32,450 nt of DNA. It comes from Bacteroidota bacterium (GTDB lineage: Bacteria; Bacteroidota; Bacteroidia; Palsa-965). The notes below the pieces were generated by a model that made no database searches, was not told the origin of the DNA, and saw only the letters and a program-made list of their open reading frames with translations. Positions 15,319 to 28,840 of the stretch are shown here, piece after piece (positions within the stretch are counted from its first letter, which is position 1; each line of letters opens with the position of its first letter). Where the stretch lies: assembly GCA_021299855.1 (NCBI GenBank), contig JAJTEY010000022.1, positions 1-32,450 of the forward strand. The letters are read 5' to 3'. A program made the translations under genes and the position numbers.

Positions 15319-16752
15319 TTAATTGGCGGAGCGCATGTAGGACATCGTATCAGCAAAGTTCAAATCAGTTACTTCCAACTCCCTGTAAGATGTGATCATT
15401 CCGTTCCGATCAAAACAGATCTCGATACTTACCGTACAATATTGAGTGGCTTCTTTCGATGGGCGATAAACCTGCATATCCATATTGAACGTAACAACAT
15501 GTTCATCGTTAATTTCTTGATGGAAAAACGATTCGGGATTTATCGCATACACCGGATTTTGAAAGTCGGCGTGTATGGCGGCATCCTGAATTTCCTGTAC
15601 TGTAACATCGGATAAACCTATGAACGTGCGAACGGTAGTTTGATAATAATTGCTTGCGTCGAATGCGTTATTAGTTAAATCAGTGTAGTAATTCGAGATG
15701 ATTTGCTCATAATCAGCATTAGACATGAATGCAACCTCGTCAACATACTGGGTAGTTATCTCCTCTTTGGGTTGTGATTCTTTCACCGCTAAAATGACAA
15801 CCACAGCAATCACCAATATAGCAGAAGGAATTATGATGGCCCACCAATTTGTTTTTTCCCCGGATGCAACCGTCTTCGTCTGAGGTTGTGGTGAAACTTT
15901 TTCTTTCGTTGCACCGGCATGCATGCTTTGAGAAAGTGCATGTTGTATGGCGTGTGCAAATTGATCACACGTTTGAATACGACGACTTACATCTTTGGAT
16001 GTTGCAGCCTCAATGACATATTCAATATGCAAAGGAACAGCCGGATATACTTCCGATGCTCTAGGCAACGGCACACTCACAATCTTATTAAACACCTCAA
16101 ACTCTGAGGTCATTCCATCGTACGGACATTGTCCCGTAAGCATTTGGTAAAACGTAACGCCAAGCGAATAAATATCGCTGCGTACATCCGCCGGTTCACC
16201 TTTTACTTGTTCCGGACTCATGTAGTAGACCGTACCCATCTGTGTCCCAGTGCGCGTGAGTTTCGCATTGCTGTCGTTGAGCAATTTGGCAATACCGAAA
16301 TCCAGAATTTTAATTTGACCTTCGTTCGTGATTAAAATGTTGGAAGGTTTAATGTCGCGATGAACAATGTTTTTACCATGTGCAAAAGAAAATGCAGATA
16401 GAATTTGTAACATCCACGCTGAAGCTTTTTCAAAAGGTATCGGCCCTGAAACATTTCTAATGTAGTCGTCCAGCGGTGTGCCATCAACGTATTCAAGAAT
16501 CAGGTACAAGCCTTCACTATCCTCGTAATAATCGATAAGATTAACGATTCCGGGATGTTGCAATTGCACTAAAAGTGCAGCTTCGTTTTTGAAACGTAAA
16601 CGTAATTGTTCATTACGTACCAAATGAGCATGCAACGATTTGATCGCCACTTTTCTTGAAAGATGCGTATGCTCTGCTAACCATACCGCCCCCATTCCTC
16701 CTTCACCAATCAGTGAAAGAATACGGTACTGTAAAATCTGTTTGCCAATCAT
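15319..16752 (-). CDS. Transmembrane Ser/Thr protein kinase with an extracytoplasmic C-terminal domain
   Basis: 477 aa; 'GEGGMGAVWLAEH', 'HRDIKPSNILI', 'DFGIAKLL', 'YMSPEQ'; TM 'WWAIIIPSAILVIAVVVILAV'; about 130-aa C-terminal domain. Confidence 0.93.
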   Translation of the reverse strand: MIGKQILQYRILSLIGEGGMGAVWLAEHTHLSRKVAIKSLHAHLVRNEQLRLRFKNEAALLVQLQHPGIVNLIDYYEDSEGLYLILEYVDGTPLDDYIRNVSGPIPFEKASAWMLQILSAFSFAHGKNIVHRDIKPSNILITNEGQIKILDFGIAKLLNDSNAKLTRTGTQMGTVYYMSPEQVKGEPADVRSDIYSLGVTFYQMLTGQCPYDGMTSEFEVFNKIVSVPLPRASEVYPAVPLHIEYVIEAATSKDVSRRIQTCDQFAHAIQHALSQSMHAGATKEKVSPQPQTKTVASGEKTNWWAIIIPSAILVIAVVVILAVKESQPKEEITTQYVDEVAFMSNADYEQIISNYYTDLTNNAFDASNYYQTTVRTFIGLSDVTVQEIQDAAIHADFQNPVYAINPESFFHQEINDEHVVTFNMDMQVYRPSKEATQYCTVSIEICFDRNGMITSYRELEVTDLNFADTMSYMRSAN

Positions 16753-16761
16753 GTGCTAAAT

Positions 16762-18555
16762 TTATAACTGGAATTTGATTGGAATTTTCTGATCGGTACG
16801 AACGGACTGTCCTCCAATTTTACCCGGATTCCATGCCGGCATTGACTTTACAAGACGAATCGCTTCTTTCGTTAAGCCCGGTCCGTTTTTCACTTCAACG
16901 GATGCGCGGACATTAGAAAGGCGACCATCTTTTTCGACAGTTGCAACAATCATTACGGTCCCTGTAATTTCATTTTCGCGTTCGTAAGAAGGATACTTCA
17001 AGTTGCGCGAAATGAAAGCAGACATGGCGTCGTAGCCTCCGGAGTATGTTGGCTTTACATCCACATCATAGGTCTGGTAAACAGTTCCACTGCCGGGAGT
17101 TGGCTCCGGTTGTGGTTTGGTTGTTGGACCCGTAACGACTGTTGGTACCGGTGGTGGAGGAACAACTGCCAAGCCCTTATCGGCTTCGGCAATCTTAGTG
17201 TCAACAGCTGTGTTCGATGGATCCACTTGTTTCGCTGCAGTATAGGCGTCCTTCGCTTCTTTCCATTTCTTTTGCTTTAACAGTTTATCGCCGACCTGAA
17301 TCAAGCTGTCAGCACGCTTTTTCAAAGCTTCTGCATTGCCTTTATCCACAAGCGACTGAGCAACTGCCTTATCAGTACTGTCTTTGGTTTTTGCTTCAGC
17401 AATACTGTCGTTTTTGCGAACGGTTTCTAAACTGTCCTTCTTGCGCTTCTCGGCTATAGCAGTATCTTCATTGCTTCCTCCGGAATTTATAACCACGATT
17501 ACGATTATCGCTATAACAGCAAGAACACCTCCGATAATACCAATCATGTTACCGTTACTCTTCTTTGCGCTTGGTGGCGCGTCAGCAAGAGCGGCATCAC
17601 TTTGGTAAGTAGGCTTTGGTGTTGGTGTAACTTGAGGATTCGTGCGATCAAACGCAACAGTTTTTTCAAAATCAGGTTGCTGTTCAACTACAACGGTTTT
17701 TTCAAAGGGAGCAGGAGCAGCCGGTGTGCGTTCGATGTTTTCTACAGCTGCTAAAAACTCACGACAGCTTTGGAAACGATCAGCAGGATTTTTAGCAGTT
17801 GCCTTTGCTAACACTTGCTCCATGGCTGAACTTACAGCAGGATAAACCGTGCTCGCATTGGGCAACGGTTCATTGACGATCTTATTGTAGATCTCATACT
17901 CCGTTGTTAAATCTTTGTAAGGATTGGTTCCGGTTAACAACTGGAAAAACGTGACCCCGAGCGAATAGATATCGGAGCGCTGATCTACATTTTCACCTCG
18001 AACTTGTTCGGGACACATATAATAAATTGTCCCTACCTGAGTTCCTGTCTTCGTTAACTTCTTATCAACCTCCGATAAAAGTTTCGCAATACCGAAATCA
18101 AGAATCTTACAACGCTCGTCTTTGGTTAATAAAATGTTGGATGGCTTAATATCACGGTGTACAATTCCCTGATCATGTGCATATGCAAATCCGGTTAAGA
18201 TTTGCTTCATTAATTTAAGTGCACGTTCTTCCGGAACAGGACCAGTTACTTTACGGATATAATCATCCAACGCTGTGCCGTCCACGAATTCCATAACGAG
18301 GTACAATCCGTCTGCTTCCTCCAGGTAATCGTACAATGCAACAATTGCAGGATGCTGCAAATGAGCCATCGTAGAAGCTTCTTTCTTAAAACGCTCACGA
18401 ATACTTTCGTTGTTCGCTAATCGTTCGTGCAATGATTTGATAGCCACCATACGACCCAACTTCACATGCTCAGCCAGGTACACATTACCCATGCCGCCTT
18501 CACCAATCATCTTTTTGATTTCGTAATGTAAAATCTGCTTACCGATTAAACTCAT
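16762..18555 (-). CDS. Transmembrane Ser/Thr protein kinase with C-terminal TonB_C-like domain
   Basis: 597 aa; 'HRDIKPSNILLTKDERCKILDFGIAKLL'; TM 'MIGIIGGVLAVIAIIVIVVI'; C-terminal 'ISRNLKYPSYERENEITGTVMIVATVEKDGRLSNVRASVEVKNGPGLTKEAIRLVKSMPAWNPGKIGGQSVRTDQKIPIKFQL'. Confidence 0.92.
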   Translation of the reverse strand: MSLIGKQILHYEIKKMIGEGGMGNVYLAEHVKLGRMVAIKSLHERLANNESIRERFKKEASTMAHLQHPAIVALYDYLEEADGLYLVMEFVDGTALDDYIRKVTGPVPEERALKLMKQILTGFAYAHDQGIVHRDIKPSNILLTKDERCKILDFGIAKLLSEVDKKLTKTGTQVGTIYYMCPEQVRGENVDQRSDIYSLGVTFFQLLTGTNPYKDLTTEYEIYNKIVNEPLPNASTVYPAVSSAMEQVLAKATAKNPADRFQSCREFLAAVENIERTPAAPAPFEKTVVVEQQPDFEKTVAFDRTNPQVTPTPKPTYQSDAALADAPPSAKKSNGNMIGIIGGVLAVIAIIVIVVINSGGSNEDTAIAEKRKKDSLETVRKNDSIAEAKTKDSTDKAVAQSLVDKGNAEALKKRADSLIQVGDKLLKQKKWKEAKDAYTAAKQVDPSNTAVDTKIAEADKGLAVVPPPPVPTVVTGPTTKPQPEPTPGSGTVYQTYDVDVKPTYSGGYDAMSAFISRNLKYPSYERENEITGTVMIVATVEKDGRLSNVRASVEVKNGPGLTKEAIRLVKSMPAWNPGKIGGQSVRTDQKIPIKFQL

Positions 18556-18589: not shown

Positions 18590-20971
18590 TTATTTCCCGC
18601 CCATTCCCGGGATAGAATCTTTCTTTTTCAATGCTATATAAATTCCCACAATGAAAATCAATGAAATGATTCCAACTGCATAATAGTCTAATGACATCTC
18701 TCCCGCACTTTCAAAACGTTCAGTGTAATCCTTATAAAATTGCTTGTGGAGAATTTCAACTGAACTGACGTTAACAGTATCTGTCACCGGTTCAGGAATA
18801 ATTAACTTGCCCGGATTGGCACTGTCCATCTTAATTTGGGAAGTGTCTATTTTCATGACTTCCGCTACTACAGTATCTTGTAAAATGCTGAAGCCTTCTG
18901 TTCCCCAACGCGATAATGTTCCGTAACTGATAAATTCAACCAACGGATTTTTAATTTTTGCAACAAGACCTGCAAGCATAATTTGCGGAATCAACGCTAA
19001 TGGAACAAGCGTCATTACTTTCTCCGCAGTATCCACAACTGCAGATAACAACAAGCCCATCAATGTTGAGCTCAACGCCAATACCAGCATCCAGTTGAAT
19101 GAACCCATCGGATCGTTCCATTCCGGATTATCGCCGGAATAGTTAAGGTAAACGATACCCACAAACAACAACGATTGCACTGCGCTGAAGAATCCTAACA
19201 CGAATAATTTCGACATCATGTATGTCGGAATTAACATGTTGAACATTCGTTCACGTTTGTATATCGGAAGTTCGCTTACGATTTCACGCGCTGCATTATT
19301 CGCTCCAAACCAAATAGCGCAGATAGCCATCAAGAATGGAACCGATTGCACCACGTCTTTGAAGATCAAACAAATTAGTCCGGCAATAATCGGCGCTTGC
19401 GCAATCATGATAATAGTATTAACACGATCGTTTGTCTTGATTTTGAAATAACGCGCTGTTAACCACCGCAACTGATCGAACCACGAAACTTTGGTCCGCG
19501 CAGGTTTTTCTGCAGGCGGTTCCGGAACAACGTCAGGATGCGGATGCTCGCGCTCGTATTTTTCAATCCACGGCTTCGAACGATCTCCCGCGATGTTAGC
19601 GTACACATCAACCGAATTTTTAACGTTGAAATAATTCTTGTAACCGTCGGTACTGCCATAGTAAACCAGGTGTCCGCCTTCTGCAAGGAACATCACGGAA
19701 TCCATGTAGTTCAAATCTTCCGGCTTGTGAGTAACCATAACGACGGTGGTGCCGCGTTGTGCTAATCCGCGCAGAATCCCTAAAAATTCTTCGATCGTTT
19801 GCGGATCGAGTGGCGAAGTAGGTTCGTCCAAAAAGATCACCAAAGGATCAGTAAGCAACTCAACAGCAATTGAAACACGTTTGCGCTGGCCTCCGGAAAT
19901 TTTTCCGACCAGATTTTTGCGAATATGTGCAATGTTCAGATCCTGCAAAACCTGATCAATTTTTTCTGCAATTAATTCCGGGTTCGCATTTTGTAATCGC
20001 AATCGCGCTGCATAGTATAATGATTGTTCCACCGTCAATTCACGGTGTACAATATCATCCTGCGGAACATATCCAATTTGTGTTTTTAAGAATTCATAAT
20101 TCTGAATTAATTCCAGATCGAATAGATAAACGGCACCACTCGTGATGGGAGCATCGCCGTTCAAAGCTTTCATCAATGTGGATTTACCGCATCCCGAAGG
20201 ACCCATAATTCCCATTAGTGAACGCGACGGAATAGTAAAGGACATTTCTTTCAATCCCTTATATCCGTTCGGATAGGCTTTTTCAATACGCTCTGCACGT
20301 ATCGCGACATCTTTCGAAATGTCTTTCGCTTCTCCTTTTAATTTCATTTTGAAGCGACCAACCAAAATCACATCACGCTCGGTGACTTTAGTGGCGCCCG
20401 TGATTCGCTTGCCGTTAACATAAGTGCCGTTCAGTGAATTCAGATCTTTAACCTGAAAACTTCCGTCACTTAATTTTTCTATTGCTGCATGACGACGACT
20501 AACAGAAGCATGATTGAAAACGACATCACACTCTGCATTACGTCCAATTACGACAACATTTTTGTTGGCGAACTTGTCCATGATGTTCGTGTGTTCGCCG
20601 GTGGATTTGTCATCCACCGCGGCACCTGCAGCATTAAACTGTGATTCGTCGCCATTAACCAATAAGCGCAACGACTTATTGCCGGAAAACCAGATTTCAT
20701 CACCAGGATTTATTTTTACCGGAACACCAACATTCAAACGATTGCCGTTTACAAACGTACCGTTCGAACTTCCGATGTCCTGTAACAACAATTGTCCCTG
20801 CGTGTCACAAATAATTTGTGCGTGCTGACGAGAGACCGTGTTGTCCGGAATTAAAATATCTACCTGACCTTCTGCTTTACCGATGGTCAGTACAAGATGC
20901 GATCCTTTAATCAGTTTTACTTTCCGCAGTAACTGATTTCCGGCGACGAATAACAGTTTGATTTCGTTCAT
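18590..20971 (-). CDS. ABC transporter with two N-terminal FHA domains, ATPase and ABC-2 membrane domain
   Basis: 793 aa; FHA1 'DNTVSRQHAQIICD...DIGSSNGTFVNGNRL', FHA2 'HASVSRRHAAIEKL...DLNSLNGTYVNGKRI', Walker A 'GPSGCGKSTLMKALNG', signature 'ISGGQRKRVSIAVELLTDPLVIFLDEPTSPLD', C-terminal TM segments. Confidence 0.95.
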   Translation of the reverse strand: MNEIKLLFVAGNQLLRKVKLIKGSHLVLTIGKAEGQVDILIPDNTVSRQHAQIICDTQGQLLLQDIGSSNGTFVNGNRLNVGVPVKINPGDEIWFSGNKSLRLLVNGDESQFNAAGAAVDDKSTGEHTNIMDKFANKNVVVIGRNAECDVVFNHASVSRRHAAIEKLSDGSFQVKDLNSLNGTYVNGKRITGATKVTERDVILVGRFKMKLKGEAKDISKDVAIRAERIEKAYPNGYKGLKEMSFTIPSRSLMGIMGPSGCGKSTLMKALNGDAPITSGAVYLFDLELIQNYEFLKTQIGYVPQDDIVHRELTVEQSLYYAARLRLQNANPELIAEKIDQVLQDLNIAHIRKNLVGKISGGQRKRVSIAVELLTDPLVIFLDEPTSPLDPQTIEEFLGILRGLAQRGTTVVMVTHKPEDLNYMDSVMFLAEGGHLVYYGSTDGYKNYFNVKNSVDVYANIAGDRSKPWIEKYEREHPHPDVVPEPPAEKPARTKVSWFDQLRWLTARYFKIKTNDRVNTIIMIAQAPIIAGLICLIFKDVVQSVPFLMAICAIWFGANNAAREIVSELPIYKRERMFNMLIPTYMMSKLFVLGFFSAVQSLLFVGIVYLNYSGDNPEWNDPMGSFNWMLVLALSSTLMGLLLSAVVDTAEKVMTLVPLALIPQIMLAGLVAKIKNPLVEFISYGTLSRWGTEGFSILQDTVVAEVMKIDTSQIKMDSANPGKLIIPEPVTDTVNVSSVEILHKQFYKDYTERFESAGEMSLDYYAVGIISLIFIVGIYIALKKKDSIPGMGGK

Positions 20972-20973
20972 TT

Positions 20974-21876
20974 TTATTTACCGCTGGTAATCGTGATTTC
21001 GTTGGTTGATGGTTTGTACTTAAAGCTGGTAGAAATTGGAACGGTAATTTGATAATCGTCCACAAGCACATCAGCTTGTCCGTCTACGAAGTATTCAAAA
21101 TCTCCGCTGATCACGGAAGTGGCTCCGCTTAAGGCAGTATACAAATTATTTACCGCAAGATCGCCCGCAACGTCACCTTCTTCGCCCGGCTTCAATTTGT
21201 TAGGCTGTTTCCCTAACCATTCACCTACACGCTTCTTGTAATCTTTATCAGCGAATACATCAATCCAAACGTTCTTAATCTGAACATCTAAAGGCAGTGT
21301 ATTTTTCAAGTGAACTTTAAAATCGAAAGTGCTGGTTGTTGCTTCTGCCTTTTTCAATTTCACTTCATTCAAAGTCACCGAATTGTTTCCAAGGCCATCT
21401 TCAATCAACATCGGAACAAAATCTTTCGGACGGAAATAAATGCGTGTCTTCTCTGACTTGTTTGATCCGAGCATGCTGAATTTGCCTTCCACCTGAATGT
21501 CGAATGCAATGGAATCTTTAGTTTTCATCAGCGTTGGCAAATCATTGCGCATCGCAGCAAGATGAAACTCAATGTTAAGGCCGATGGTGTCGGATGATTT
21601 TCTTTTTAATGAAACATCATCAACACCTTTCGTTTCACCTATCAGAGAATCTTTGTAATATAATTTCACAACCAGATCTTTTCCTTTGATAGAAAAGAAA
21701 TTGTCGTTACGAACGATGATGCTCGTGCGCGCAATAAACCCGCGATCTGTGCGATCAACCACTTCAAGATTAATAGCTTTTTCGAAGTTGGGATATTTGA
21801 ACATGGCAAATAGTGCGCCTACGATTACAGCAATCAGGCCAACGTTCAATACGATAAGTCTAGTTCTGTTGCTCAT
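20974..21876 (-). CDS. Single-TM envelope protein, possible LEA/WHy-like domains
   Basis: 300 aa; N-terminal TM (LIVLNVGLIAVIVGALFAMF), beta-rich repeats 'GFIARTSIIVRNDNFFSIKGKDLVVKLYYKDSLIGETKG' and 'STFDFKVHLKNTLPLDVQIKNVWIDVFAD'. Confidence 0.5.
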   Translation of the reverse strand: MSNRTRLIVLNVGLIAVIVGALFAMFKYPNFEKAINLEVVDRTDRGFIARTSIIVRNDNFFSIKGKDLVVKLYYKDSLIGETKGVDDVSLKRKSSDTIGLNIEFHLAAMRNDLPTLMKTKDSIAFDIQVEGKFSMLGSNKSEKTRIYFRPKDFVPMLIEDGLGNNSVTLNEVKLKKAEATTSTFDFKVHLKNTLPLDVQIKNVWIDVFADKDYKKRVGEWLGKQPNKLKPGEEGDVAGDLAVNNLYTALSGATSVISGDFEYFVDGQADVLVDDYQITVPISTSFKYKPSTNEITITSGK

Positions 21877-23246
21877 TATTCGGGGCAGTTATATTTATAA
21901 TTCGATAACATGTGGTTGCGGATACAAACCGCGCGCTTGTTGGAGTATGGGTGAGAACGGAAAATGTTATCCAGTGGATCGTATTCCGGATTTCCATCAG
22001 CATCATGCATACGCTCCCACAAACCGATTCCTACACATGGATCCCATCCACACTTCATGCACAAGTCTGAGCCCCACAAGTCGCAGTGTGATTCATTTTC
22101 TTGATTAAATGAAGTTGTTACGATTGACTCCAGCATTTGTGCGCCCATTCCAATTTCGTTATTGCCAAATGTCTGTTCGAACCACTTGTTCTTTTGAATA
22201 TGTTGGCGAATATGGCCTAATTGGTTGTGACCGATTTCATGTCCTAAGATCGCAGCAATCTCATCGTCATTTTTGCAGAAGTCGATAATACCGGTGTAGA
22301 TGAATACTTGTCCACCTGCAGTGAATGCGTTCAATACATTGTCATCAACCACGTAGATTTCGTAGGTCATTCCGTAAGGATTTGGAATGTTCTGTACCAA
22401 CTTGTTAAAGATACGCTGAATGCGAGCAACAACAGAACCGCTTTCTATGATGGTTGCCGTCTTGAACATTTCATCTTTGATAGACTGGCCAACTTCCAAT
22501 TCCTCTTCCAGCGTCACTTCAATTCCTGAATCTTCAATAGTTTCTTTTTCGAAACCACGAATGATGTCAAGAATGCTTCCTGTGCCCATGTCATTTTCAT
22601 CTTTCAGACACGAGAAGTCATAAACGATTTCTGAACCCGCCGGCTCTTCAACCACAACAATTACAGGCTCTTCATTCGGTTGAGTTGGTTGTTGTTCAAT
22701 TTCTTTCCTGCGTCTCTCGCCTTCAGCAGGAGGTACAGGTGCTTCTGCTTTTTGTCCTTCTTCATCACGGGTAACATCCGTTTTCGGCAGATCTTTTTTC
22801 TTCAGCACTTCCGATTTTTTCAAATCGCTATCATCACCGGCTCCCCCTTCATTCGCGAAATACATCACTAGGAATAAAGCGATCACCGCACCCATCGATA
22901 TGATGGCGCTTCGCATAAAGTTGTCCTGAGCGGCAGGTGCTTTTTTCGGTGCGGACTTTGGCGATGTAAAGCCGCGCGTTTTATCGAGGTTGGCTTGTTT
23001 TAAACCTGACGTGTGTTTTTCCCAATCCAGTTGCGCTTCACCAAGCTTTACAATGTCGCCTGAAACTAAGAATACGCTTTCGGCAATTTTTTTACCATTC
23101 ACATACGTGCCCGATGTGGAGTTGAGGTCGGTGAGGAAGATATTTCCATCATCGTCCAGGAAGATCTCAGCATGCTTACGACTTACCGCAGCATCATTGA
23201 GAACAACGTCATTTTCGGCATCCCTGCCGATTCGAATCATTTTCAT
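21876..23246 (-). CDS. FHA-TM-M48-family metallopeptidase fusion
   Basis: 456 aa; FHA 'DAAVSRKHAEIFLDDDGNIFLTDLNSTSGTYVNGKKI'; TM 'SAIISMGAVIALFLVMYF'; 'NAFTAGGQVFIYTGIIDFCKNDDEIAAILGHEIGHNQLGHIRQH'. Confidence 0.93.
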   Translation of the reverse strand: MKMIRIGRDAENDVVLNDAAVSRKHAEIFLDDDGNIFLTDLNSTSGTYVNGKKIAESVFLVSGDIVKLGEAQLDWEKHTSGLKQANLDKTRGFTSPKSAPKKAPAAQDNFMRSAIISMGAVIALFLVMYFANEGGAGDDSDLKKSEVLKKKDLPKTDVTRDEEGQKAEAPVPPAEGERRRKEIEQQPTQPNEEPVIVVVEEPAGSEIVYDFSCLKDENDMGTGSILDIIRGFEKETIEDSGIEVTLEEELEVGQSIKDEMFKTATIIESGSVVARIQRIFNKLVQNIPNPYGMTYEIYVVDDNVLNAFTAGGQVFIYTGIIDFCKNDDEIAAILGHEIGHNQLGHIRQHIQKNKWFEQTFGNNEIGMGAQMLESIVTTSFNQENESHCDLWGSDLCMKCGWDPCVGIGLWERMHDADGNPEYDPLDNIFRSHPYSNKRAVCIRNHMLSNYKYNCPE

Positions 23247-24460
23247 CTTGTTGGAGTTTGATTAGGGGGTGTTCTTGCGGTTAAATGAGAATTTAAAAAT
23301 AAGGTTATTACTCCAATGATAAACACCCAGCATCCGGGACCGGAGTTACTTTCTTCGGATGTAATATTAAAAACGCCTGCAAAACCGAATGTTTCGTGGC
23401 CTGCGAATACTACGGTTAATGCTGAAACACTTCCCCACAGAACAAATGCGGGACGCAGGTTTTTACCTGTGGCCGAGCCCGGAAAATAATAGCGCACTAA
23501 TGTGAAAAACAATGCACCGTATAGCAGTAACCAAATCAGGCGAAAGATAAGTCCTCCATATTCGTTGCCACCGCCGATCATAGAGGTCATTAACGTAAAA
23601 CCGCTCAGATGAATAATTCCGGGGTGTCCGCTCCAATGCTCAATGGTAAACCACATGGGTAGGTTGCTGAAAAACAGAAACGTTAGTAATGCCATAACTA
23701 TAAATTCGATTTGCAAATAAAATTCCTGTTCAACGGGAAATACATGATTCAAAATAGCACCTGCAACAAGCAGCGACAAAATAGTCAAACCATATCCCGC
23801 ACCTAATAATGGAGTCGCAGTATCAACTTCTTCTGTTGATGCAGTTAAAATCAACACGGTTAATAGCCCTTGCATACTTAAACCTGCCCAGGGTAAAAAG
23901 TGACACAACGGCAATTTCCGGCCCCAAGGAGTTGCGCTAAAAATCGTTAAGCCGATGACCAGACATAAGATGATTCCCGATGATGCAATTAAACCCGAGT
24001 ATCCCGAAAGCGCCGCTAAAGGTTCGTCTCCCGATAAATTAATTATTAATGAAATCAGCGAATAATATGCTTTACCCGATGTTGAGTAGTACGGCAACAG
24101 TACACTTATTGCGGCAACTATTCCGGATATCATTAATGCAACAAGTACTCTATCTTTTTCGGTAAACTCCTGAGCCGATGCTGTCGGAGGAATAACAATA
24201 TCTGGTTGAGAAGTGGATGTTTTGAAATAATTTTTCCAAGGCAAAACAGAATTGCCGGCTTTAACGATATCGTTATCCTCCAACATCACAGAGCCGCTGA
24301 TTTTTCGCCCATTTACAAAGGTGCCGTTACCCGAGTCCAGATCAGTTAAAAAAACGTGCCCTTCATCATCACGGAATAATTCCAGATGATAACGTGAAAC
24401 CGATGTGTCCTGCAACACGATGTCATTTTCACGGGCGCGTCCTACTTTAACTAATTTCAT
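23243..24460 (-). CDS. FHA domain fused to a polytopic membrane domain
   Basis: 405 aa; FHA 'DTSVSRYHLELFRDDEGHVFLTDLDSGNGTFVNGRKI' followed by about 8 hydrophobic segments. Confidence 0.88.
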   Translation of the reverse strand: MKLVKVGRARENDIVLQDTSVSRYHLELFRDDEGHVFLTDLDSGNGTFVNGRKISGSVMLEDNDIVKAGNSVLPWKNYFKTSTSQPDIVIPPTASAQEFTEKDRVLVALMISGIVAAISVLLPYYSTSGKAYYSLISLIINLSGDEPLAALSGYSGLIASSGIILCLVIGLTIFSATPWGRKLPLCHFLPWAGLSMQGLLTVLILTASTEEVDTATPLLGAGYGLTILSLLVAGAILNHVFPVEQEFYLQIEFIVMALLTFLFFSNLPMWFTIEHWSGHPGIIHLSGFTLMTSMIGGGNEYGGLIFRLIWLLLYGALFFTLVRYYFPGSATGKNLRPAFVLWGSVSALTVVFAGHETFGFAGVFNITSEESNSGPGCWVFIIGVITLFLNSHLTARTPPNQTPTR

Positions 24461-25266
24461 ATTAAATGTATTAACGCATTTTTAAAATCTGTGCACGTTT
24501 GAAAGCGATGCTCCGGTTGTTTCATGGTTGCTTTGCGGACGATAGCTGCAATCGTAGGCGACAAATCTTTACGGATATTTCGCACATCGGAAATTTGCTC
24601 TTGCATTACTGCTTTGAATACATCATCACGCCCTGTTGAGTTGGGGAATGGTGTTTGTGTGGTGAGCAATTGAAATAAAGTCACGCCCAGCGAATATATA
24701 TCCGACAAAGTACTTACTGCTTTTCCTGAAATCTGTTCCGGACTCATGTACACCGGACTTCCCATAATTTTTTCGGGATTTCCTTCCTGCAAAGTATGCG
24801 CAATACCAAAGTCAAGCACTTTGATTTCTCCGGAGTTGGTAATCATAATATTTAAAGGTTTCAAGTCGAGATGAATGACATCCTGTGAATGTGCATAGGC
24901 AATTGCATCCAACACTTCACACATCATCGCAGCAGCAACAGATTCCGGTAAGGGTCCTGAAACCTTATTTATATAATCTTCCAGATTTACACCGTCTACA
25001 AACTCCATCACCAAATAAACCGCTTCACCTCCGTCAATAAAATCAACAAGGCGAACAATATTCGCATGATTTAAGTATAAATATCGATTAGCTTCTTCTT
25101 TAAATTTCTTACGCACAAATTCATTATTCCGAAATCCTGTGCGCAGTTCTTTTATCGCAACAGGAAACCCTGTGTGCAAATCAACTCCCTGATATACGAT
25201 AGCCGTGCCGCCCGTGGAAAGCTGGCCAACGATTTCGTATTGAGTAGTGATTTTATTTAAGAGCAT
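24457..25266 (-). CDS. Ser/Thr protein kinase, soluble, non-RD type
   Basis: 269 aa; 'LSTGGTAIVYQGVD', 'VAIKELRTG', 'VIHLDLKPLNIMI', 'LDFGIAHTL', 'YMSPEQISG'. Confidence 0.92.
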   Translation of the reverse strand: MLLNKITTQYEIVGQLSTGGTAIVYQGVDLHTGFPVAIKELRTGFRNNEFVRKKFKEEANRYLYLNHANIVRLVDFIDGGEAVYLVMEFVDGVNLEDYINKVSGPLPESVAAAMMCEVLDAIAYAHSQDVIHLDLKPLNIMITNSGEIKVLDFGIAHTLQEGNPEKIMGSPVYMSPEQISGKAVSTLSDIYSLGVTLFQLLTTQTPFPNSTGRDDVFKAVMQEQISDVRNIRKDLSPTIAAIVRKATMKQPEHRFQTCTDFKNALIHLI

Positions 25267-25284: not shown

Positions 25285-26619
25285 TTATTGACCATCTTTT
25301 CCTCCCGGAGGCGGTGGTGTTGTGGTCGGCCCTGTTGACCCGGGAGCAGGTTGTTCCGTCGGCGTTGTCGGGTCAGTTTGAGGAATGGTTGTACCGGTCG
25401 GGCCGGTTGCTCCCGAAGTTCCTCCGGTATTGGTTGCGCCAGTTGAACTGTTTGTAGGTTTTGGGGAGGTAGCGCCAGTAGCGCCTGTTGTCCCGGTTTT
25501 ACCGGTAACCCCTGTCGGCGACGGTTTGTTAGTTGGAGTTTCTTTTTTAGGTGCAACCGTTGGATTTTCTTCCTGTTTTTCCTCCGGTTGGTTCGGGTTA
25601 TTACCGATTTTAAATTCTTTCGGTTCGTCCTTTTTGGGTTCAGGCGTTGGCTCTGTTTTGTTATTATAAATGAAAAACAGAATTATTAAAACAATGAGAA
25701 AAGCAATGCCGCCAATTAGAAAAAGTTTACTCTTTTTCTTCTCTTCATTTACGGCAGGAATTTCAGCAGTTGTTTCAAACGGATCTTTCTTCGGTGTATT
25801 GATGATTGTTGTTTTACCGGACATGTCGCCGGTATTCACCAGATCGGCAGGATTCATGTCCACGAACACACTGGCAGTAAATGGACTTGATGTAATTTCA
25901 ATCAACTGCACCGTAATGTTATCATGTCCTCCCGCTGCTTTCGCTGCATTAATTAAAGTTGTGGCTTGTTGTTCCAGCGAACCTTCACGCAGAATTTTTT
26001 TCATCGATGCATCATTCACCAATCCGCACAAACCATCCGAACACATCATGAACACATCGCCAACTTTGGGCTGAATGGGATGTTCGTTTACGGTAGGTTC
26101 AACATTCGGACGAATGCCTAATGCTTTTAATAACTCGTTTTTTCGCGGATGATTTTCTGCTTCCGCATCAGGAATAATGCCCTGATCAACCAAAGACTGA
26201 ACGAATGAATGATCCTTTGTGATGCGATGCAAACCTCCAGCGGTAAACAAATAGATACGACTATCGCCAACATGGCCAATGTGCACATGATCACCATGAA
26301 CGACTAAAACTGTACATGTAGTTCCCATTCCTTTTAGGTTGGGATCCATTTGCGCTGTGGCATAAATCTGTTCGTTCGCAAATTGAATAGCGGAAGAAAT
26401 ACCGGAAGGAATATCCGTCAAGTCCTGACTATCCATAAATTCAAGAATACTCTTGACCGCAATTGATGATGCTGTTGCGCCTCCTACGTGTCCGCCCATG
26501 CCATCGCATACCACGAATACATAACCATTCCGCGTTTGTCCGGATCCCATAGAATCTTCGTTGGCTTTGCGCACCAAGCCAACGTCTGTAAGACCGAATT
26601 CTTTAAGTTTTTCGCTCAT
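25285..26619 (-). CDS. PP2C-family Ser/Thr phosphatase with TM and low-complexity collagen-like tail
   Basis: 444 aa; 'VRKANEDSMG', 'FVVCDGMGGHVGG', 'HIGHVGDSRIYLF', 'GGHDNITVQLIEI'; TM 'LFLIGGIAFLIVLIILFFIY'; tail 'GVTGKTGTTGATGATS...GATGPTGTT'. Confidence 0.95.
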   Translation of the reverse strand: MSEKLKEFGLTDVGLVRKANEDSMGSGQTRNGYVFVVCDGMGGHVGGATASSIAVKSILEFMDSQDLTDIPSGISSAIQFANEQIYATAQMDPNLKGMGTTCTVLVVHGDHVHIGHVGDSRIYLFTAGGLHRITKDHSFVQSLVDQGIIPDAEAENHPRKNELLKALGIRPNVEPTVNEHPIQPKVGDVFMMCSDGLCGLVNDASMKKILREGSLEQQATTLINAAKAAGGHDNITVQLIEITSSPFTASVFVDMNPADLVNTGDMSGKTTIINTPKKDPFETTAEIPAVNEEKKKSKLFLIGGIAFLIVLIILFFIYNNKTEPTPEPKKDEPKEFKIGNNPNQPEEKQEENPTVAPKKETPTNKPSPTGVTGKTGTTGATGATSPKPTNSSTGATNTGGTSGATGPTGTTIPQTDPTTPTEQPAPGSTGPTTTPPPPGGKDGQ

Positions 26620-26624
26620 GCAAA

Positions 26625-28193
26625 TTATAGATGGAAGGTGAATGCAACATCACCCAGTAAAACATGATCCGCATCATTGAGCGGATGCGTTCCGCTAATT
26701 TTTGTCCCGTTAACTTTTACACCATTAGAGCTGTTCAGGTCGCGTATATAATACTTTCCGCCTTCATAAGTTACAACGGCATGCTTGCGTGAAACCGTAT
26801 TGTGAGCAAAAACAATATCTGCTCCGGCTTCACGGCCAATAATTATTTCAGGTTTGTTAATTTCCAGTACACCGCCAAATTCTTTCGCAGTTACAATTCG
26901 TGCAAATGAGCCACGGGCGCGCATTTCATGAATAAGTTGTTTTTCCCTTTCCTGCTCATGTTTACGACGCTCTTCTTCCTGCTGCTTTCTTTTTTCCTCC
27001 TCGGTCTGTCGCACGATGTTTTCAAGATGCCTATCCTGAGCTGCAATTTTTTCTTCTGCCTGACGTTGCTTTTCCTGCATGCTTTTCAAATTCTTCTGAC
27101 GCAATGCTTCTTCCGCCGCAATGCGCTGTACACGGGCTTTATTCCATTTAAAGCCGGCAAAAATTAAGCCGATAAATGCAACGCCCAATAGAATGAACAA
27201 GAGTTTATTTTCTTCGAAACGATCTGCAAAAGTTGGCGGAGGCGCAGTGTATGAAAACAGAATTGATTGTCCGGTTTTTGTTTTTAAAACAGCACTGTGA
27301 TTTTTTCCATCGCGTGAAGAAGCGGCAGTATAAGAAATCGTGTACTCAGATCCTGCCAATCGTTGAGGAGCGTTTTTAATAAACTTGATCAACTGCTGAA
27401 CAACATTTTCTGCGTTGTTTCCGTCTGTCCACATCGTTTCTCCGAAAGAAGCATCCACCACATCTTTAATGGTGTATTTATCTTTCATGCCGATGTCATA
27501 ACGCAACGAGTAGATCGGAATGTTTAAAGCAACAGCCTTATCACTCACGGATCCTGCAGTCTGGCGCGTATCGAAGATGTTGTAATACTCATCAGATAAC
27601 AACAGAATAATTTTCTTCTTGTCTGTTTTATATTTTTCGAAATACGATAACGCTTCATGCAAGGCCAAAAATATTTCCGAACCTTGATTCTGATTTGCTA
27701 AGGCACTTGGTGCCGTTATTGCATTTACTTTTTCTTTTACGACATCAGGTTTGTTCGTGAATTCCGGTTGTGCAGGATATAATAATTGATCATTGCGATA
27801 CCAGTCAAACGTGACTACAGCCATTTCGTCTATTGCGCCCAACATGCCGCTCATCGCATTGCTCAATACGCCTTTGAAAAATTCACGTTGCATCGCGCGT
27901 TGGGGCAGATAGTGATTTTCCATAACAACAAGTATGGAAAGTCCCTGATCGTCGGGTTTCGCGGGTTTCGAAGCGAAAGTAAACGTGCAATTCGCGCCGT
28001 CTTCAACTATGAAGAAGTCGCTGTTGTGTGAAACGGGATTGCGATCTGTTGCAACAAGTTTAACGGACGGAAAGCTATCCGCGCTTACGGATTTAAACTG
28101 AACCTGCGCGTATAGTGGCATGCAGAGGAAAGCCCACAGCACAGCAAGGCATCCGAAGCGCCGATAGCGTTCCAAGCAGAACGTATTTCGCAT
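26625..28193 (-). CDS. VWA-like domain, TM, coiled coil and C-terminal FHA domain protein
   Basis: 522 aa; signal peptide, VWA-like core 'QGLSILVVMENHYL...KIILLLSDEYYNIFD', TM 'LLFILLGVAFIGLIFAGF', charged coiled coil, FHA 'HNTVSRKHAVVTYEGGKYYIRDLNSSNGVKVNGTKI'. Confidence 0.88.
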   Translation of the reverse strand: MRNTFCLERYRRFGCLAVLWAFLCMPLYAQVQFKSVSADSFPSVKLVATDRNPVSHNSDFFIVEDGANCTFTFASKPAKPDDQGLSILVVMENHYLPQRAMQREFFKGVLSNAMSGMLGAIDEMAVVTFDWYRNDQLLYPAQPEFTNKPDVVKEKVNAITAPSALANQNQGSEIFLALHEALSYFEKYKTDKKKIILLLSDEYYNIFDTRQTAGSVSDKAVALNIPIYSLRYDIGMKDKYTIKDVVDASFGETMWTDGNNAENVVQQLIKFIKNAPQRLAGSEYTISYTAASSRDGKNHSAVLKTKTGQSILFSYTAPPPTFADRFEENKLLFILLGVAFIGLIFAGFKWNKARVQRIAAEEALRQKNLKSMQEKQRQAEEKIAAQDRHLENIVRQTEEEKRKQQEEERRKHEQEREKQLIHEMRARGSFARIVTAKEFGGVLEINKPEIIIGREAGADIVFAHNTVSRKHAVVTYEGGKYYIRDLNSSNGVKVNGTKISGTHPLNDADHVLLGDVAFTFHL

Positions 28194-28840
28194 TATTGTG
28201 CGCTTTTAAACTTAAACGTTGTATTGGCTACTTTAATCGTGTCGCCGTCGTTCAAGTCGTACGGTTTACCTATTTCTAATTCTTCGTTGTTCAGGAATGT
28301 CGCGTTAGCAGCCATTTCGTCTTTGATGAAAAACTTGCCTTTCTTGCATAAAATAGTAACGTGCTTTCCGGACACGGCAGCATCATTCGTGATAACAATG
28401 GAATTGCCCGGATCGCGACCAATGCTGTTATTTCCTTCATAAATACGGAAATCTACGCCCATCGGATCAATGGTGTACGATATCAACCATCCGGTAATCA
28501 TGCGTGTTGCGCGAGGATTTTCAGCAACGGTATTTCCTGTTTCGTCAATCTCTAAGCCCTGAATAAAAGTGCGGTTAAGATCTTTTGCAGGTGTTGCAGG
28601 TGTGTTCGGATTAGCACCTGAAATTTGTGTTTTGTCCGGTGTAACGGTCGGGCCGTGTCCACCGAATATCTGTGTCTTGGCAGCATCGAGTCCACCTTGC
28701 GTATTTTCAAAGTTACCGCTGATCATAGTCTTGTCCATGTTGCCGCCTTCAGAGCCGGACGCAGACTTTGGACAATACGGACATTCTTCCAACGATTCCT
28801 TATAGAAGTGACCGTTGTTGCAACGCTTAAAACCTTTCAT
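28193..28840 (-). CDS. FHA domain protein with N-terminal zinc-ribbon-like motif and repeated Thr motifs
   Basis: 215 aa; 'CNNGHFYKESLEECPYC'; linker with DKTMISG/AKTQIFG/DKTQISG/NRTFIQG; FHA 'DAAVSGKHVTILCKKGKFFIKDEMAANATFLNNEEL'. Confidence 0.88.
   Translation of the reverse strand: MKGFKRCNNGHFYKESLEECPYCPKSASGSEGGNMDKTMISGNFENTQGGLDAAKTQIFGGHGPTVTPDKTQISGANPNTPATPAKDLNRTFIQGLEIDETGNTVAENPRATRMITGWLISYTIDPMGVDFRIYEGNNSIGRDPGNSIVITNDAAVSGKHVTILCKKGKFFIKDEMAANATFLNNEELEIGKPYDLNDGDTIKVANTTFKFKSAQ

Follow-up and report, generated by a model that had tools for sequence, protein, structure and literature searches.

A putative FHA-tethered M48 protease encoded within a predicted Ser/Thr phosphorylation gene cluster of Bacteroidota

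In the threonine phosphorylation pathway of type VI secretion (PpkA/PppA/Fha), a kinase, a PP2C phosphatase and FHA proteins occur together; a vWA domain is also present in this pathway. A second arrangement is known from Mycobacterium tuberculosis, where the FHA-FHA-ABC exporter Rv1747 and the neighbouring Ser/Thr kinase PknF have been described as a two-gene operon (PMC3908365). Rv1747 forms membrane nanoclusters, and in vitro phosphorylation by PknF promotes condensation of its FHA region, an effect reversed by the phosphatase PstP (PMC9312465). Among M48 peptidases, the proteases BepA, LoiP and YcaL of the E. coli periplasm and the Geobacter protein 3c37 share the HExxH motif, a Glu as third zinc ligand and an HPx4R plug motif; M48 enzymes possess a movable active-site plug (PMC7950410).

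Sequence analysis of a 32,450-nucleotide stretch of a Bacteroidota contig (hereafter the window) revealed a run of minus-strand genes extending from 28840 to 15319, several of which overlap by 1-4 bases:

28193-28840, minus strand: Zn-ribbon/FHA protein carrying four conserved [KRSQ]T-x-[IV]-x-G motifs, a candidate phosphothreonine scaffold
26625-28193, minus strand: protein with vWA-like domain, TM and C-terminal FHA domain, predicted from sequence (Pfam FHA, E value 2.1e-19; weak vWA match)
25285-26619, minus strand: PP2C phosphatase with TM and extracytoplasmic tail (NCBIfam Stp1, above cut-off)
24457-25266, minus strand: cytosolic Ser/Thr kinase, a conserved neighbour (Pfam Pkinase, E value 2e-55)
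23243-24460, minus strand: FHA protein with polytopic membrane part (Pfam FHA, E value 1.4e-20)
21876-23246, minus strand: FHA-TM-M48 fusion, 456 aa (open reading frame, Pfam, relatives)
20974-21876, minus strand: membrane-anchored LEA_2-domain protein, a conserved neighbour (Pfam, E value 1.1e-7)
18590-20971, minus strand: FHA-FHA-ABC-ABC2 exporter, a conserved neighbour (Pfam, co-occurrence)
16762-18555, minus strand: Ser/Thr kinase-TM-TPR-TonB_C protein (Pfam)
15319-16752, minus strand: Ser/Thr kinase with TM, its C-terminal part extracytoplasmic (Pfam)

As with Rv1747 and PknF, an FHA-FHA-ABC exporter is found here beside Ser/Thr kinase genes. Pfam matches give the product of 18590-20971 the domain order FHA-FHA-NBD-TMD, which is that of Rv1747, and Ser/Thr kinase genes are adjacent. 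Unlike the two-gene M. tuberculosis arrangement, however, the cluster in the window is larger, with a protease, a vWA-FHA protein, a Thr-repeat protein and a phosphatase nearby. The joint occurrence of a kinase, a PP2C phosphatase, FHA proteins and a vWA domain recalls the type VI pathway; four FHA proteins matched the TagH/Fha family (TIGR03354) at 20-36 bits against a cut-off of 120, and no secretion genes were recognized among the window genes examined. In many of the cluster proteins a phospho-module on the cytoplasmic side is joined to a part that lies in or beyond the membrane. A phospho-circuit around the protease gene is clearly there, in the form of adjoining kinases, a PP2C, other FHA proteins and a Thr-repeat protein.

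The FHA-TM-M48 gene shares bases with both neighbours, its start with the end of the FHA-polytopic gene and its end with the start of the LEA_2 gene. Its product is made up as follows:

23040-23237, minus strand: FHA domain, residues 4-69 (Pfam, E value 6.7e-22)
22854-22910, minus strand: single TM helix, residues 113-131 (hydropathy, flanking charge, model helix 108-134)
22629-22853, minus strand: low-complexity linker rich in Glu, Lys and Pro, residues 132-206 (pLDDT, composition)
21927-22427, minus strand: M48 peptidase domain, residues 274-440 (Pfam Peptidase_M48, E value 2.9e-22; Foldseek)
22227-22241, minus strand: HEIGH zinc-binding/catalytic motif, residues 336-340 (H336, E337 and H340 invariant)
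22092-22094, minus strand: third zinc ligand E385 (invariant in the 16-row alignment)
21933-21953, minus strand: HPx4R active-site-plug motif, residues 432-438 (invariant in the 16-row alignment)

The alignment comprises the window protein and its relatives. Both Pfam matches lie far above cut-off, the FHA domain scoring 78.1 bits against 20.7, and the protein contains one hydrophobic segment (residues 113-131; mean Kyte-Doolittle value 2.25). A sequence-only reading of this DNA, which had described an FHA domain, one TM and an M48 domain with HEIGH at 22227-22241, is confirmed by Pfam, hydropathy and the exact coordinates of the motif; it had missed the neighbours, the signal-peptide relatives, the cysteines, E385 and the plug motif. 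Since full-length relatives at 33-41% identity keep this predicted architecture, it is not due to chance. It is a new combination of known kinds of part, and no description of an FHA-M48 architecture was found in a search of mostly open-access literature.

In the FHA domain, R8, S22 and T44 are kept, while Ser45 replaces the usual Asn of NGT; in nine FHA relatives this position is Asn. R8, S22 and T44 are at positions that contact phosphate in FHA structures, and the Ser of the window protein may weaken binding.

All residues expected for an active M48 enzyme are present in the predicted protease. The hallmarks of peptidase family M48 were found together, namely HExxH, a downstream Glu ligand, the plug (H432-P433-x4-R438) and the M48 fold; the counterparts of E385, H432-P433 and R438 in BepA are E201, H246/P247 and R252 (PMC7950410), so that the motif of the movable plug is present as well. 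An AlphaFold2 model built from 16 sequences has a mean pLDDT of 73, exceeding 90 across much of the M48 core. The best Foldseek matches of the M48 part were 3c37 (E value 3.3e-9) and BepA (E value 1e-6), with ZMPSTE24 also matched, and the FHA part matched CT664 and others. The kinship with BepA and LoiP suggested earlier thus stands at the level of the family but is only distant, with 73.6 bits against a cut-off of 365 for LoiP (NCBIfam NF052399) and 50.1 against 570 for BepA (NF052400). The open reading frame stops with the M48 domain and has no space for TPR repeats. By sequence, motif and predicted fold the window protease is a member of M48, whereas by the curated cut-offs it is neither LoiP nor BepA. 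Unlike BepA, LoiP, YcaL and 3c37, it is anchored through an FHA-TM part, lacks TPR repeats and belongs to a family with 7-10 cysteines.

The cysteines bear on the orientation of the protein. The M48 domains of the window family contain 7-10, against 0-3 in 11 other M48 proteins of the class; five are invariant in the family alignment (213, 388, 404, 441 and 454) and 324 is nearly so, a pattern that suits an oxidising compartment and thus an external M48 domain. In most of the ten FHA forms, the N-terminal flank of the TM holds more Lys plus Arg residues than the C-terminal one, and the N side is positively charged in the window protein. Moreover, FHA-less relatives start with a hydrophobic, secretion-signal-like stretch (as judged by eye and hydropathy), e.g., MKELFFLIFLVAVANSIAQ, directly before a conserved YDFSC that marks the start of the mature domain. 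Because charge bias, conserved cysteines and secretion-signal relatives in the same slot agree, the placement of FHA in the cytoplasm and M48 outside, as read earlier from the sequence, is well supported, and we consider this predicted topology strong. That both domains are cytoplasmic, with the hydrophobic segment serving as a monotopic anchor or buried helix, finds some encouragement in the several Lys residues of the linker; set against the strong 19-residue TM with positive charge on its N side, the conserved cysteines and the secretion-signal orthologues occupying the same slot, it is scarcely credible.

Scanning 84,980 species genomes turned up 12 clear relatives (L027-L038), all from Bacteroidota MAGs, and five distant M48 proteins. 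All 12 adjoin cluster partners where the contig extends, the partners being Zn-ribbon/FHA, vWA-TM-FHA, PP2C-TM, Ser/Thr kinase, LEA_2 and FHA-FHA-ABC exporter proteins. The order Zn-ribbon/FHA, vWA-FHA, PP2C, kinase, M48, LEA_2, FHA-FHA-ABC recurs across divergent Bacteroidota MAGs. Within it, the protease slot takes three forms. FHA-TM-M48 stands alone in the window, L027, L029, L030, L033, L034 and L037, although the contig of L029 ends near the gene and a tandem copy there could be missed. In L028, L031 and L032 it is followed by an FHA-less M48 with a secretion-signal-like start. The slot of L035, L036 and L038 holds only the FHA-less M48, and in L038 a separate small FHA-TM gene lies upstream of the kinase. 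The tandem pairs are located at:

L028, 9491-11551: FHA-TM-M48 and FHA-less secretion-signal M48
L031, 1115-3151: FHA-TM-M48 and FHA-less secretion-signal M48
L032, 9506-11542: FHA-TM-M48 and FHA-less secretion-signal M48

These pairs suggest a tethered and a free enzyme with separate roles. In a tree, the branching of FHA-fusion forms, secreted forms and the window branch favours neither the FHA fusion nor the secreted form as ancestral.

Since FHA-less forms exist, in the same slot or in tandem, the possibility that the FHA-TM part is merely an anchor or a loose fusion, and that the protease is constitutive in the envelope and unaffected by phosphorylation, is a serious rival to any phospho-dependent role. 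The long, predicted disordered linker and the Asn to Ser change in the window FHA fit it too. Nine relatives at about 40% identity, however, have kept their FHA domain with near-canonical residues, which goes beyond the needs of an inert anchor, and the FHA and secreted copies side by side in L028, L031 and L032 suggest different jobs. On balance we find it rather unlikely.

The linker also bears on how a phospho-signal might reach the protease. The sequence-only reading had envisaged inside-out control, in which binding of a phospho-ligand to the FHA domain would be relayed through the membrane as a change in conformation or oligomerisation and so directly switch the protease on or off. Topology, adjoining kinase and phosphatase genes and the M48 plug motif (PMC7950410) are as such a switch would need. 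Between TM and protease, though, lie about 75 residues, mostly predicted to be disordered and variable in number among relatives, and with a single TM these offer no rigid path for a signal; in the AlphaFold2 model pLDDT falls below 50 at residues 84-107, 136-173 and 186-198, and given this low confidence of the linker a mechanical signal through the TM is unlikely. Some lineages, moreover, keep the protease without FHA. Inside-out control thus remains plausible insofar as topology and phospho-circuit fit, but allosteric switching goes too far and we hold it to be improbable; activation driven by dimerisation is possible. Because of the disordered linker and the FHA-less lineages, recruitment is favoured over allosteric switching, and the evidence suggests that phosphorylation would position the envelope protease, not necessarily switch its activity on.

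A candidate for the docking site is the Zn-ribbon/FHA protein, whose Zn-ribbon was read from the Cys pattern and has no Pfam match. Between its two domains, the window protein carries the spaced motifs DKTMISG, AKTQIFG, DKTQISG and NRTFIQG, and in the linkers of Zn-ribbon/FHA proteins [KRSQ]T-x-[IV]-x-G is repeated up to five times. In nine orthologues [KRSEDQ]Tx[IV]xG was observed 31 times against 0.4 expected from composition shuffles, and the motif density reaches 3.9 per 100 residues, compared with 0.01 for the remaining open reading frames of the loci; the patterns were written after inspection, and these figures convey strength and are not formal p-values. T56, T71 and T91 are invariant, while the linkers between motifs diverge. 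On the simplest reading, this protein is a strong candidate for a scaffold that would present phosphothreonines at several sites to the cluster's FHA domains, and it is the likely ligand of the protease FHA. More distant scaffold homologues keep one to six KT/RT motifs each, and most adjoin vWA-FHA-like and PP2C genes; neither M48 nor FHA-FHA-ABC was found in their genomic neighbourhoods. Since these homologues occur with vWA-FHA-like and PP2C genes but without M48 nearby, the protease is an accessory, and most simply M48, LEA_2 and ABC would form an effector tier added to a scaffold core.

We therefore propose, at about even weight for and against, that the product of 21876-23246 is an extracytoplasmic M48 protease, tethered to the inner membrane, that docks via its cytoplasmic FHA domain onto a phosphothreonine scaffold beside the exporter. 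A cluster kinase would phosphorylate the repeated Thr motifs of the Zn-ribbon/FHA protein, and perhaps the kinase and phosphatase linkers too. The protease, the vWA-TM protein and the FHA-FHA-ABC exporter would each bind the phosphorylated Thr sites through their FHA domains, so that the protease is gathered beside the exporter and could process an exported or envelope substrate outside; the PP2C would undo the assembly. The domains, catalytic residues, gene order, Thr repeats and co-occurrence from which this proposal starts are read from the sequence. Our confidence is moderate for docking of the protease FHA and weak for its co-localisation with the exporter and for the substrate. Docking would not be essential to the cluster, since the slot in L035, L036 and L038 holds an FHA-less protease. 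The phosphorylation-promoted condensation of Rv1747 may serve as a partial precedent for such gathering. A broader version, an envelope module of Bacteroidota new to the literature, in which phosphorylation of a Thr-repeat scaffold in the cytoplasm assembles an FHA-tethered, disulfide-stabilised M48 together with FHA-FHA-ABC and so couples export to extracytoplasmic processing, is conceivable but doubtful. If recruitment is correct, Ser/Thr phosphorylation in a bacterium would set the working place of an extracytoplasmic protease through an FHA domain that reads it; the KTx[IV]xG repeats provide a defined candidate ligand, which makes the whole FHA circuit testable.

The distribution of the protease is patchy. 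The cysteine-rich M48 family was found in five of 395 Bacteroidia genomes, none of them another listed member of the genus or family of the window. FHA-FHA-ABC occurs in six of the 395, including all five with the cysteine-rich M48 (Fisher p 8e-11, a statistic that ignores relatedness), whereas the Zn-ribbon/FHA protein is more widespread than M48 (16/395). G126 was considered as a sixth co-occurring genome and rejected, its M48 being distant, with a lipoprotein-like start, and on another contig than FHA-ABC. Patchiness, together with strong matches of the kinase to the PD-T4-6 and MAD6 models, could indicate a system for anti-phage defence or conflict in which the protease would act as an effector. 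The PADLOC matches are confined to generic kinase and ATPase domains, however, no PADLOC model fits the M48, LEA_2, Zn-ribbon/FHA or vWA-FHA proteins, the PP2C is matched only weakly, and the components are envelope proteins; identity as a defence system was rejected on account of those generic matches, and we regard the defence reading as very improbable.

Some minor observations concern the neighbouring proteins. The FHA-polytopic gene is missing from its slot in most relatives. The polytopic part of its product has no other Pfam match, and in their N-terminal parts this product and the M48 gene product share 41% identity, perhaps as the result of a local duplication. The linker of the kinase-TM-TPR-TonB_C protein carries EKTVVVE and EKTVAFD, which resemble the scaffold repeats. 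The PP2C tail is collagen-like and rich in Gly, Thr and Pro in the window, while two relatives (L027 and L033) have LysM, which suggests that this tail contacts peptidoglycan or the surface.
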